A DNA stretch of 64,000 nucleotides from Falsirhodobacter xinxiangensis. Lineage in GTDB: Bacteria; Pseudomonadota; Alphaproteobacteria; Rhodobacterales; Rhodobacteraceae. Positions within the stretch are counted from its first letter, which is position 1. Each line of letters begins with the position of its first letter. This document shows, one piece after another, positions 13,006-16,588 of this stretch. The stretch is taken from positions 186,001-250,000 of the forward strand of contig NZ_SMYN01000004.1 of NCBI RefSeq assembly GCF_004959935.1. The letters are read 5' to 3'. The notes under the pieces are model-generated. The model had not been told where the DNA came from and did not search any database. It was given only the letters and a program-made list of their open reading frames with translations. The position numbers were made by a program, and so were the translations under genes.

Positions 13006-13034
13006 GTGATCACATTTTTCAGGCGTGTGATCAC
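13006..13034. promoter_or_regulatory. Paired GTGATCAC operator upstream of sdhC
   Basis: Two perfect 8-base palindromes GTGATCAC at 13006-13013 and 13027-13034 have centres 21 bases apart. They lie just beyond the stop of the DUF1737 gene and upstream of sdhC. The same pair with the same 21-base spacing occurs upstream of sucC. I infer a shared dimeric regulator binding one face of the helix two turns apart. The regulator is not identified. Confidence 0.65.
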
Positions 13035-13042
13035 GAAATCCG

Positions 13043-13246
13043 TCAGTGTTCGCCCAGCTTCGTCTCGGGGGTGTAGATGCCGGGGACCTCCTTGGTCACG
13101 GCCTGTCCGCAGCGCGTCACGCCCTTGGCCGCATCGAAGGAATAGGTCGGGCTGCCATAGAGTTCCCAGCCCTTGTTCAGCGCGGCGGTGACCTTGTGGC
13201 AGAAGGCGGCGGTGTCGTCCTCGGTCAGCAGTCGGTAGAGTTTCAT
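13043..13246 (-). CDS. DUF1737 small protein
   Basis: A 67-residue soluble protein (MKLYRLLTEDDTAAFCHKVT, then ALNKGWELYGSPTYSF) matching the pattern of the DUF1737 family, whose function is unknown. The start ATG overlaps the stop of the upstream NnrU gene by four bases (ATGA), so the two are coupled. The sdh operator pair begins directly after its stop. Confidence 0.8.
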   Translation of the reverse strand: MKLYRLLTEDDTAAFCHKVTAALNKGWELYGSPTYSFDAAKGVTRCGQAVTKEVPGIYTPETKLGEH

Positions 13247-13788
13247 CCGTAGGTTCCCAGAAATGGATTGTGGCCCAGCAAGATGTGGACCCCCGCGATG
13301 ACGGCGTAAAGGGCCAGCGTTCCGACAAGGTTCATCGCATCGCCCTTCGCGCCCCGACCGGCGGCGGGCCGGTTCCACGGGGTGCGGTTGATGATCGCCA
13401 TTTCCACGAGAGCCCAGAACCCGATGCCGCCGAACAGCACCAGCGAGGCGAGATCGCCGTTCACCAGCAGATGCGCGACGGACCAGATCACGGTCCCCCA
13501 CAGCATCGGGTGCCGCATCCGGGTATAGAGCGTGCCCTTGGTGCCGCCGACGCCGAACAGGAACACCGACACCAGCATCAACAGGTTGTTCAGATGCCCG
13601 ATTCCCGGCAGTGGCGACCAGACCGGAACGAAATCCGCCCCGCGATAGCCGAGCACCATAAGCAGCACCGACAGCGCCAGAATCCCCGCGACCGCCCCGC
13701 GCGACAGGCGTGCCCTGACCCCCGGTGCCAGCCGTTTCAGCAGATGCGCGCCCCACCACAGAACGACGCCGAGGATGAGAAGGAACAT
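13243..13788 (-). CDS. NnrU family membrane protein
   Basis: A 181-residue integral membrane protein with five or six hydrophobic helices and the NnrU-type core GTLYTRMRHPMLWGTV plus GGIGFWALVEM. NnrU was first named from denitrification loci but is widespread and resembles isoprenylcysteine methyltransferase-type membrane proteins. There are no nitrogen-oxide genes nearby, so a denitrification role is not supported here. It lies 18 bases downstream of the malyl-CoA enzyme gene in a four-gene minus-strand unit. Confidence 0.85.
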   Translation of the reverse strand: MFLLILGVVLWWGAHLLKRLAPGVRARLSRGAVAGILALSVLLMVLGYRGADFVPVWSPLPGIGHLNNLLMLVSVFLFGVGGTKGTLYTRMRHPMLWGTVIWSVAHLLVNGDLASLVLFGGIGFWALVEMAIINRTPWNRPAAGRGAKGDAMNLVGTLALYAVIAGVHILLGHNPFLGTYG

Positions 13789-13806
13789 GGCTTGCCTTTC
13801 AGCTTG

Positions 13807-14613
13807 CTAGATCGCGGCGATCGCCTCTGCCAAGGCAAGGGTGCGCCTTGCGGTGATGATATGCAGGTTTTCGACGATCCGACCATCCACAACCGCAACC
13901 GCCTGCCCAAGACGCAAGGCTGCCTCGTGCGCGTCGATCTGGCGGCGGGCAAGGTCCACATCCTCGGGGCGGGGGGCGAAGACCTCGTTCGCGGTGTCGA
14001 TCTGGACGGGGTGGATCAGGCTTTTGCCGTCAAAGCCCATGTCGCGGCCCTGAAGGCATTCGGCCTTCAGCGCATCCAGATCGCGGAAGGTGATGTGGAC
14101 GCCGTCGATGATCGCCAGACCATTCGCCCGCGCCGCCAGAACGCACAGGCCAAGGCTGGTCAGAAGCGGCCCGCGCCCCGGCACGTCGCGGGCATGAAGC
14201 TCGCGCATCAGATCGTTCGACCCGATCACCATCCCGGTCAGGCGCGGATGCGCCGCGATCGCGGCGGCGTTCAGCACGCCCCGCGCCGTCTCCATCATCG
14301 CCCAGACGGGATGGCGCGTCTGCACGTCCAGATGCAGCGGCGCATCCACCTTCGGCACCAGAATCGCATCCACATCCACCGCGTCGAAATGCGGCGCATC
14401 CTCGGGGGCGGAGATGCGGACGATCCTTGCGCGGTGGCCGTGATCGCCCTTCAGCGCCTGCAGCAGCATCTCGCGCGCCTCGGCCTTGCGGTCCGGGGCA
14501 ACGGCATCCTCCAGATCGAAGATGATCGCATCGCAGGGCAGGGTGGCCGCCTTTTCCAGCGCCCGTTCGTTCGAGGCGGGGATGTAAAGAACCGAGCGCA
14601 GGGGTCGTTCCAT
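13807..14613 (-). CDS. mcl2: CitE-like (3S)-malyl-CoA thioesterase / HpcH-HpaI family
   Basis: A 268-residue TIM-barrel of the HpcH/HpaI aldolase-citrate lyase beta family. SVLYIPASNERALEKA at the N-terminus binds CoA; FDLEDAVAPDRK supplies a metal-binding acid; MMETARGVLNA and GSNDLMRELHA are active-site segments. In Rhodobacter sphaeroides a paralogue of malyl-CoA lyase, (3S)-malyl-CoA thioesterase (Mcl2), lies near sdh and mdh and, with Mcl1, accounts for apparent malate synthase activity in the ethylmalonyl-CoA pathway. I assign it by that synteny and length; an aldolase or another CoA ester specificity remains possible. Confidence 0.8.
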   Translation of the reverse strand: MERPLRSVLYIPASNERALEKAATLPCDAIIFDLEDAVAPDRKAEAREMLLQALKGDHGHRARIVRISAPEDAPHFDAVDVDAILVPKVDAPLHLDVQTRHPVWAMMETARGVLNAAAIAAHPRLTGMVIGSNDLMRELHARDVPGRGPLLTSLGLCVLAARANGLAIIDGVHITFRDLDALKAECLQGRDMGFDGKSLIHPVQIDTANEVFAPRPEDVDLARRQIDAHEAALRLGQAVAVVDGRIVENLHIITARRTLALAEAIAAI

Positions 14614-14622
14614 CGTCTTCTC

Positions 14623-15363
14623 CTATGCCAGTGCCTGCCAGATCAGGCGGAGCGAAATCAGCAGCAGCCCCCATGTCACCAAGAGGAAGAACAGCCGTTC
14701 GGGGATGATCTTGACCAGCCAGACGCCGAGGAAGACCGCCGCAACCGCAGGAAGCGCCAGCCACGCGCTGACGGCAAGGTTTTCCGCCGAGAGCTGGCCA
14801 AGGAACCAGTAGGGAATCAGTTTGATCCCGTTCACATAGGCGAAGATGATCGTCGAGGTTCCCGCGAACACTGCCTTGGGCATTCGCAGCGGCATGGCAT
14901 AGACCTGATAGGGCGGGGCGCCCGCATGGCTGATGAAGCTGGTGAACCCGGTCAGCGCGCCCCAGAACAGGCCGGGGGCGGTCCGGGCGTGCCGCGCCTC
15001 GCCCAAGGCCGGGCGCAGCAGGCGGTTCAGTGCGAAGATCGCGCCGATCAGGCCGATCAGCAGCGTCACCAGCCACTCCGGAACCAGATGCGCCGTCAGA
15101 CCGCCGAAGGCCACGCCCGCAGTCGCCCCGATGCAGATCAGCAGGATCACGCGGCGGTCGTAATTCTTGCGATAGGCATAGAGGCCGAACATGTCCGACA
15201 CGCAGAAGATCGGCAAAAGCAGCCCCGCCGCCGTCACCGGGGAAATCGCCAGGGACAGTATCGGCACGCCCAGCACACCCAACGCCGGCAGGCCGCCCTT
15301 CGACAGTCCGACGCAAAGCGATGCGGTCACCGCCAGAATCCAGAATGTCATGCCGTCCATCAT
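14623..15363 (-). CDS. TauE/SafE family membrane transporter
   Basis: A 246-residue membrane protein with about eight hydrophobic helices and the TauE/SafE signature GLSKGGLPALGVLGVPILS near the N-terminus. It is a predicted anion or organosulfonate exporter; the substrate is unknown. Two adjacent ATGs exist (15363 and 15360), with GAGGG close upstream, so the start is uncertain by one codon. First gene of the minus-strand unit that includes mcl2, ending 9 bases before it. Confidence 0.85.
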   Translation of the reverse strand: MMDGMTFWILAVTASLCVGLSKGGLPALGVLGVPILSLAISPVTAAGLLLPIFCVSDMFGLYAYRKNYDRRVILLICIGATAGVAFGGLTAHLVPEWLVTLLIGLIGAIFALNRLLRPALGEARHARTAPGLFWGALTGFTSFISHAGAPPYQVYAMPLRMPKAVFAGTSTIIFAYVNGIKLIPYWFLGQLSAENLAVSAWLALPAVAAVFLGVWLVKIIPERLFFLLVTWGLLLISLRLIWQALA

Positions 15364-15505
15364 GCCCTCGTTATGTGCGGTGCGCCGTCGGGATACAACC
15401 GCGCGCCGATGTGAGCGCGAACATCGCAGCTTGACGCTTGCGCCCTCCGGATCAAGGGGCTAGCCCTACCTGCGTCAATTGCCAAACGGATTTGGGAGAT
15501 ACTCC

Positions 15506-16468
15506 ATGGCCAGACCCAAGATTGCACTGATCGGCGCCGGCCAGATCGGCGGCACGCTCGCCCATCTTGCCGCGATCAAGGAACTCGGCGACGTGATCCT
15601 GTTCGACATCGCCGAAGGCACCCCGCAGGGCAAGGCGCTGGATATCGCCCAGTCCGGCCCGTCCGAAGGCTTCGACGCCGTGATGAAGGGCGCCAACAGC
15701 TATGAGGACGTCGCGGGCGCAGATGTCTGCATCGTGACCGCCGGCGTTCCGCGCAAGCCGGGCATGTCGCGCGACGACCTGCTGGGCATCAACCTCAAGG
15801 TCATGAAATCGGTGGGCGAGGGCATCAAGGCGCACGCGCCGAACGCTTTCGTCATCTGCATCACCAACCCGCTGGACGCGATGGTCTGGGCGCTGCGCGA
15901 GTTTTCGGGCCTGCCGCACAACAAGGTCGTCGGCATGGCCGGCGTGCTGGATTCGGCGCGCTTCCGTCACTTCCTGTCGCTGGAATTCAACGTGTCGATG
16001 CGCGACGTGACGGCCTTCGTTCTGGGCGGCCACGGCGACACGATGGTCCCGCTGACCCGTTATTCGACCGTCGGTGGCATCCCGCTGCCGGATCTGGTGA
16101 GCATGGGCTGGACCACCCAAGAGAAACTGGATGCCATCGTTCAGCGCACCCGTGACGGCGGCGCGGAGATCGTCGGCCTGCTGAAGACCGGCTCGGCCTT
16201 CTATGCGCCCGCGACCTCGGCGATCGAGATGGCGGAAGCCTACCTGAAAGACCAGAAGCGTCTGCTGCCCTGCGCCGCCTATGTCGATGGCAAGCTGGGT
16301 CTGAACGGGATGTATGTCGGCGTGCCGACCATCATCGGCAAGGACGGGATCGAGCGGATCGTCGACATCAAGCTGAACGCGGACGAGCAGACCATGTTCG
16401 ACAAGTCGGTCGATGCGGTGAAGGGTCTGGTCGCGGCCTGCAAGGGCATCGACCCCACGCTGGCCTGA
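15506..16468 (+). CDS. mdh: Malate dehydrogenase
   Basis: NAD-dependent oxidation of malate to oxaloacetate. 320 residues: Rossmann motif [26 protein letters not shown] active-site loop with substrate arginines, and catalytic histidine in [10 protein letters not shown]. This is the LDH-like MDH subtype. The start is set at 15506 rather than the in-frame ATG at 15479, because GGGAG lies seven to twelve bases before it and the protein begins at the normal [11 protein letters not shown] terminator follows at 16491-16523, separating it from sucC. Confidence 0.97.
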
Positions 16469-16490
16469 TTTCACGGCCATAGGATTCGGA

Positions 16491-16523
16491 ACGGGCGCGG
16501 CGCGAGTCGCGCCCGTTTTGTTT
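16491..16523 (+). terminator. Rho-independent terminator after mdh
   Basis: A nine-pair stem ACGGGCGCG / CGCGCCCGT with an eight-base loop is followed by TTTGTTT. It should stop mdh transcription before the sucC promoter region. Confidence 0.7.
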
Positions 16524-16559
16524 GCAGATGCAGCATTCGATGCCGCAGCGCAAAGGGTT

Positions 16560-16588
16560 GTGATCACGGCTTTTCAAGGTGTGATCAC
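16560..16588. promoter_or_regulatory. Paired GTGATCAC operator upstream of sucC
   Basis: Two GTGATCAC palindromes at 16560-16567 and 16581-16588 have centres 21 bases apart, identical to the pair before sdhC. They lie about 107 bases upstream of the sucC ATG and downstream of the mdh terminator. This is a likely operator for the sucCDAB-lpd unit. Confidence 0.65.

Follow-up and report, generated by a model that had tools for sequence, protein, structure and literature searches.

The question raised by this locus is which protein recognizes two identical pairs of a short palindrome, GTGATCAC, that lie upstream of two operons of the tricarboxylic acid (TCA) cycle, sdh and suc, in a 64,000-nucleotide stretch of the Falsirhodobacter xinxiangensis genome (contig NZ_SMYN01000004.1, positions 186,001 to 250,000; referred to below as the window). 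A first-pass annotation, made from the letters alone, had reported four copies of the palindrome, two upstream of sdhC and two upstream of sucC with centres exactly 21 bases apart in each pair, and had proposed that a single regulator, which it could not name, binds there as two dimers. An exact search found the four copies at the positions reported (Table 1) and no others in the window, and both pairs had 13-bp linkers and hence the reported distance between centres. The analysis presented here suggests that the regulator is very probably the orthologue of AkgR, a GntR/FCD protein encoded in this genome and predicted to bind the pairs.

The number of palindromes alone was mildly unusual, as four were seen where a mean of 1.06 was expected and 3 of 100 shuffles reached four. 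An exact search of the whole genome (3,972,354 bases in 80 contigs) for GTGATCAC-N{3,33}-GTGATCAC found only the sdh and suc sites, both with N13, and the reversed control pattern of the paired palindrome gave 0 occurrences in the same bases. An arithmetic estimate from the density of the palindrome in the window gives a chance expectation of about 0.03 such pairs per 4 Mb. The pairing of the copies, rather than their count, is not due to chance. Many pairs at random places in the genome would have spoken against the first-pass proposal, and the N13 scan that it called for gave no exact pair beyond the two already seen. When up to two mismatches were allowed, six additional N13 matches were found across the genome, all inside open frames of 431-682 codons, as expected of coding sequence, and one of them (C23:12837) had like-sequenced matches in two other genomes (G094 and G263). 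Because all six lie in such frames, they were treated as coding and rejected as further operators. Upstream distances are 128-156 bp for the sdh pair, counted from the sdhC start (12878), and 107-135 bp for the suc pair, counted from the sucC start (16695). The extended form of each palindrome is TTGTGATCACAA, and TT...AA flanks likewise extend the palindromes in the profile of the family.

The arrangement in pairs has been retained throughout nearly all of the family Rhodobacteraceae. In an order-level sample of 390 genomes, all listed under this one family and representing 139 genera, at least one exact pair (3-33 bases between copies) was present in 385 genomes and 136 genera, and the conservation in relatives that the first-pass annotation had wished to see checked is thus near-universal. 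Twenty regions were selected for having two pairs within 20 kb, and in all 20 of them one pair preceded sdhC and the other sucC. Among the named loci, which are the best 80 of 597 sdhB matches, a pair with spacing 19-22 was found at the sdhC promoter of 71 of the 75 that were testable, including those of Cereibacter ovatus, Gemmobacter aquatilis, Paracoccus haematequi (L133), Ruegeria and Shimia, and at the sucC promoter of all 21 that contained the sucC start and upstream DNA. The sdhC pair was missing at the remaining four of the 75 loci, with one copy each at L102, L123 and L145 and none at L147. Once duplicates, short flanks and poor gene starts had been dropped, the fetched loci taken together had an exact pair in 99 of 124 sdhC and 60 of 72 sucC promoters; this set includes 29 genomes picked for having zero or one pair. 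The distance between centres in these 159 exact pairs was 21 in 140 and 20 in 19, with 11-44 allowed. Twenty-one bases correspond to two helical turns, and this spacing supports the earlier suggestion of two dimers on the same face of the helix, while the presence of the same pairs, near-universally, at both promoters supports that of one regulator for both operons. In a class-level sample, 11 of 385 genomes had a pair (11-15 bases between copies) and five of these 11 belonged to Rhodobacteraceae; a tblastn search of the flanks, up to 1.5 kb, in the six genomes from outside the family found no sdh, mdh or suc. One N13 pair outside the family (G535; L275, 992-1020) lies just upstream of another GntR/FCD gene.

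The palindrome itself provided a clue to the identity of the regulator. We take RSP_0981 of Rhodobacter sphaeroides to be AkgR, as Imam et al. 2015 are reported to state. The excerpted text of PMC6365646 lists GTGATCAC as a site bound by AkgR, an activator of the GntR type from R. sphaeroides, and that of PMC4344238 predicts that the GntR regulator RSP_0981 has sucCD, sdh and sucAB-lpd under its control. Both the core, in four exact copies, and the sdh and suc targets were found in the window. The F. xinxiangensis genome encodes 27 FCD-type proteins, from which we chose as the candidate the one (G000:C1:300139-300792, minus strand, outside the window) whose orthologue lies near sdhB in Fertoeibacter niger (1.9 kb; L118) and Gemmobacter aquatilis (6.4 kb; L080). 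The candidate contains a GntR domain (PF00392, 52 bits) and an FCD domain (PF07729, 65.6 bits), and among solved structures McbR (4p9f) is closest to it in sequence. It was matched in 388 of the 390 genomes (E <= 1e-20), weak matches in G110 and G227 (50-51%) and G141 (36%) included. In the class-level sample matches were found in 46 of 385 genomes (E <= 1e-25), with 31-46% identity outside the family among the matches listed. The candidate is the putative counterpart of RSP_0981 and would probably bind the pairs in this species.

The regulator's own promoter was found to carry the palindrome in most of the genomes sampled. We fetched 60 regulator upstream regions (46 genera by hand count), drawn from the better matches, so that the most diverged orthologues lie outside this sample. 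An exact GTGATCAC was present 15-67 bp before the estimated regulator start in 51 of the 60 (150 bp searched), and a copy with at most one mismatch between -150 and +30 in 54; the background was 413 of 20,000 random 180-bp windows from sdh and suc loci of the family. A TTGAC preceded the palindrome by 17-20 bases in 49 of the 51 genomes and by exactly 18 in 37 (L308-L367), a fixed geometry of -35 box and operator. The palindrome therefore overlaps the likely -10 region of the regulator's promoter, and this overlap suggests that the regulator represses its own gene. At one locus (G147:C1:3357949-3357969) two palindromes 5 bases apart, instead of the usual single copy, stand ahead of the regulator gene at a distance of about 55 bp.

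In order to see what becomes of the regulator where exact pairs are scarce, both promoters were read in 30 genomes: five without an exact pair, 24 of 28 with one (hand count), and G023. A sucC pair with at most one mismatch was present in 26 of these, and none was found in G110, G227, G141 and G232. At sdhC, no pair within three mismatches was seen in G110, G227 and G232 or in the eight genomes named below, G141 had a poor pair only (3 mismatches, spacing 19), and the remaining genomes had pairs with 0-2 mismatches. A clean co-loss of pairs and regulator in the five genomes without exact pairs was considered and dropped, as only G232, with neither regulator nor pairs, and G141, whose best regulator match is only 36% identical, lack both. 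The regulator is retained in the other three, G110, G227 and G231, the last of which has a normal orthologue and pairs that are degenerate, and co-loss is thus weak support; the marking of the regulator's own promoter is the stronger evidence. The diverged orthologue of G110 and G227 (50-51% identity) has kept its recognition helix nearly unchanged, and GTGATCAC stands in the promoter of its gene while sdh and suc lack pairs, suggesting that the regulon in these two genomes has likely been rewired.

Several of our observations weigh against assigning the pairs to the AkgR orthologue. The family-wide search covered one of the 27 FCD proteins, the candidate. No copy of GTGATCAC stands in the promoter of the regulator gene of this genome, and one is present in only 7 of a group of 30 made up of this regulator and its closest orthologues. 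In G023, exact pairs stand at sucC as well as sdhC (C46; loci L192, L231 and L271) without a regulator orthologue; its best-scoring match has 31% identity, and its homology to the neighbouring genome G020 stops before the expected place of the regulator, which is inside a contig. Conversely, G110 (L251) and G227 (L252) have the regulator but no sdh or suc pairs. A sdhC pair within three mismatches was not seen in G304, G133, G008, G142, G203, G289, G060 and G011, all of which have the sucC pair. Finally, from the RSP locus numbers we presumed that the gene would be adjacent to sdhB, a feature that is not strictly defining. In this genome the regulator gene (contig C1) is not on the contig of the window (C34), where no regulator gene was found, and Cereibacter ovatus (L154) likewise had none at up to 10 kb from sdhB. 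By hand count over the 27 genomes for which the places of both were listed, 9 have the gene no more than 15 kb from sdh or suc, and 18 have it far away or on another contig, so that linkage is common without being general. Since linkage is the minority pattern, our confidence is slightly lowered.

Some of these observations would fit a second GntR/FCD regulator that binds the sdh and suc pairs, with the AkgR orthologue using the motif only at its own gene. The genome has FCD proteins enough for this, G023 keeps its pairs without the orthologue, and G110 and G227 keep the own-promoter copy without the TCA pairs. The motif is also used in the wider subfamily, as it occurs within 150 bp upstream of 5 of 15 distant GntR/FCD homologues from outside the family (one of them at 150 bp) and as the pair in G535. 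We nevertheless regard a second regulator as unlikely, because no other paralogue is marked by the palindrome (in this genome GTGATCAC is near none of the 27 FCD genes, the candidate included, and two of them have a copy more than 1 kb away) and because the prediction for R. sphaeroides, in the excerpts of PMC4344238, names RSP_0981 for these very operons.

The first-pass annotation had also likened the core of the palindrome to CRP half-sites. CRP sites have the form TGTGA-N6-TCACA, and the core, TGTGATCACA, does hold both TGTGA and TCACA, but here the half-sites abut and the 6-bp spacer is absent. In the 51 of 60 genomes described above the palindrome stands in the promoter of a GntR gene, and R. 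sphaeroides is not predicted to have a CRP-like protein, according to the excerpted text of PMC4344238. Binding of the pairs by a CRP/FNR-type protein is consequently very improbable. Of the earlier interpretation, then, the single regulator and the two-dimer spacing hold, the likeness to CRP does not, and the protein left unnamed is most likely AkgR. There is scarcely any likelihood that the palindromes, whose core contains GATC and TGATCA, are methylation or restriction sites or a repeat with no regulatory role, as this fails to explain the 20-21 bp spacing in 159 of 159 exact pairs, the two fixed promoters and the TT...AA flanks.

A family profile of the DNA between the pairs and the promoters, anchored on the pairs, showed that past the proximal palindrome A/T peaks at about 1-4, 10-13, 21-24, 31-33 and 41-43 bases and G+C fills the intervals. 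A and T are mixed at most peaks, suggesting that A/T content is kept rather than a particular base. After removing sequences that were at least 60% identical, the best A/T period was 10.5 for sdhC (n=65) and 9.5 for sucC (n=46), and 0 of 1000 position shuffles reached it, although the sequences are related by descent and shuffle counts are therefore not probabilities. The position-shuffle test is also lenient, since the stretches upstream of the pairs pass it overall (0-6 of 1000) with 11-20 times less power; at the 60% cut their period of about 10 passes in the same way (0-3 of 1000), with power 11-17 times smaller. The sucC profile contains a conserved TT at 48-49 and a conserved CAT at 71-73 bases past the pair, which look like a -35 and a -10 box and would place the transcription start about 84 bp past the pair and the dimer centres at about -87 and -108. 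No -35/-10-like boxes stand out in the family profile of sdhC.

A mechanism consistent with these data can be proposed. Each GTGATCAC, in its extended form, would bind one dimer of the AkgR orthologue, so that two dimers would probably sit two helical turns apart on the same face of the DNA upstream of the promoter and, when the ligand signal is right, would activate sdhCDAB and sucCD-sucAB together. The phased A/T tracts probably bend the DNA or provide minor-groove contacts, which would let the dimers touch RNA polymerase. In most sampled relatives, but not in this genome, the single copy at the regulator's own promoter should repress. It is tempting to go further, and we do so tentatively, with some doubt prevailing, in suggesting a composite architectural activator element made up of two AkgR dimers two turns apart and about five helically phased A/T tracts, the tracts curving the DNA so that it reaches RNA polymerase from a distance of about 90-110 bp, with selection holding the geometry and not the base sequence constant at both operons across the family.

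The genes around the pairs were identified by profile matches, with sdhCDAB on the minus strand and mdh, sucC, sucD, sucA and sucB on the plus strand. These matches bear out the operon neighbours given by the first-pass annotation, with the added precision that the suc pair sits between mdh and sucC, past mdh rather than ahead of it. The stretch that separates sdhA from sdhB (9691-10284) holds a small open reading frame with a lipoprotein-like start, seen by eye, and among the sdhB loci from relatives the distance between the two genes ranges from about 15 bp to more than 3 kb. SucB has two lipoyl domains (two Biotin_lipoyl stretches) instead of one.

Table 1. Palindromes, putative promoter elements and genes of the sdh and suc region, in window coordinates
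Feature	Position	Strand	Remarks
GTGATCAC palindrome, sdh pair, promoter-proximal copy	13006..13013	.	exact match
GTGATCAC palindrome, sdh pair, distal copy	13027..13034	.	centres 21 bp apart, linker 13 bp
GTGATCAC palindrome, suc pair, distal copy	16560..16567	.	exact match
GTGATCAC palindrome, suc pair, promoter-proximal copy	16581..16588	.	centres 21 bp apart, linker 13 bp
DNA between sdh pair and promoter	12956..13005	-	family profile: A/T tracts in phase, at intervals of about 10 bp
DNA between suc pair and promoter	16589..16638	+	family profile: same phased A/T tracts
Putative sucC core promoter (TTCACC, 17 bp, CATCCA)	16636..16664	+	inferred from the TT and CAT columns that the profile shows as conserved
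sdhC, succinate dehydrogenase cytochrome b556	12480..12878	-	TIGR02970
sdhD, membrane anchor	12098..12469	-	TIGR02968
sdhA, flavoprotein	10285..12087	-	TIGR01816
sdhB, iron-sulfur subunit	8908..9690	-	NF004616
mdh, malate dehydrogenase, upstream of suc pair	15506..16468	+	TIGR01763 (scanned from 15509)
sucC	16695..17888	+	NF001913
sucD	17892..18779	+	NF004230
sucA, 2-oxoglutarate dehydrogenase E1	18835..21804	+	NF006914; alternative start 18820
sucB, E2	21806..23296	+	NF004309
Probable lpd (E3), candidate operon member	23997..25385	+	Pyr_redox_2 and Pyr_redox_dim domains

In all likelihood, the system described here is the control of the TCA cycle by AkgR that is already known. With the AkgR (RSP_0981) regulon of R. 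sphaeroides, as given in the excerpted sources, it shares the palindrome and the predicted targets sucCD, sdh and sucAB-lpd, and a conserved GntR/FCD gene is present here as the putative counterpart of that GntR-family activator; it differs in that the regulator gene is off the sdh/suc contig and the own-promoter copy is absent in this genome. No mention of the tandem two-turn spacing, the phased A/T tracts or the own-promoter copy was met in the literature searched, with the primary AkgR paper outside the comparison, and the rigid tandem geometry with its phased A/T tracts, together with its near universality in the family, may be new. This work assigns a likely protein to a motif for which the first-pass annotation could name none, and carries a regulator described in one model species over to a TCA control point that is conserved in nearly all sampled genomes of the family. 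The fixed spacing and the phased A/T tracts provide testable predictions on far-upstream activation by a GntR protein.

Two other known regulators invite comparison. PS417_07240, the regulator of a deoxyribonate cluster in Pseudomonas simiae, is GntR-like, 32% identical to AkgR and a proposed binder of GTGATCAC (PMC6365646, excerpted text). It differs from the system described here in having one palindrome, at -47 to -40, and in serving a local catabolic cluster and not the TCA cycle. CceR (RSP_1663, LacI family) is also predicted to control sdh in R. sphaeroides, and its motif is the inverted repeat [A/G/T]GTT-N6-8-AAC (PMC4344238, excerpted text), to which the palindromes described here do not conform. 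In Paracoccus denitrificans, succinate dehydrogenase and 2-oxoglutarate dehydrogenase lie outside the CceR regulon. The AkgR orthologue is a candidate answer to how they are controlled in that species, the pairs having been seen in Paracoccus haematequi and not in P. denitrificans itself.

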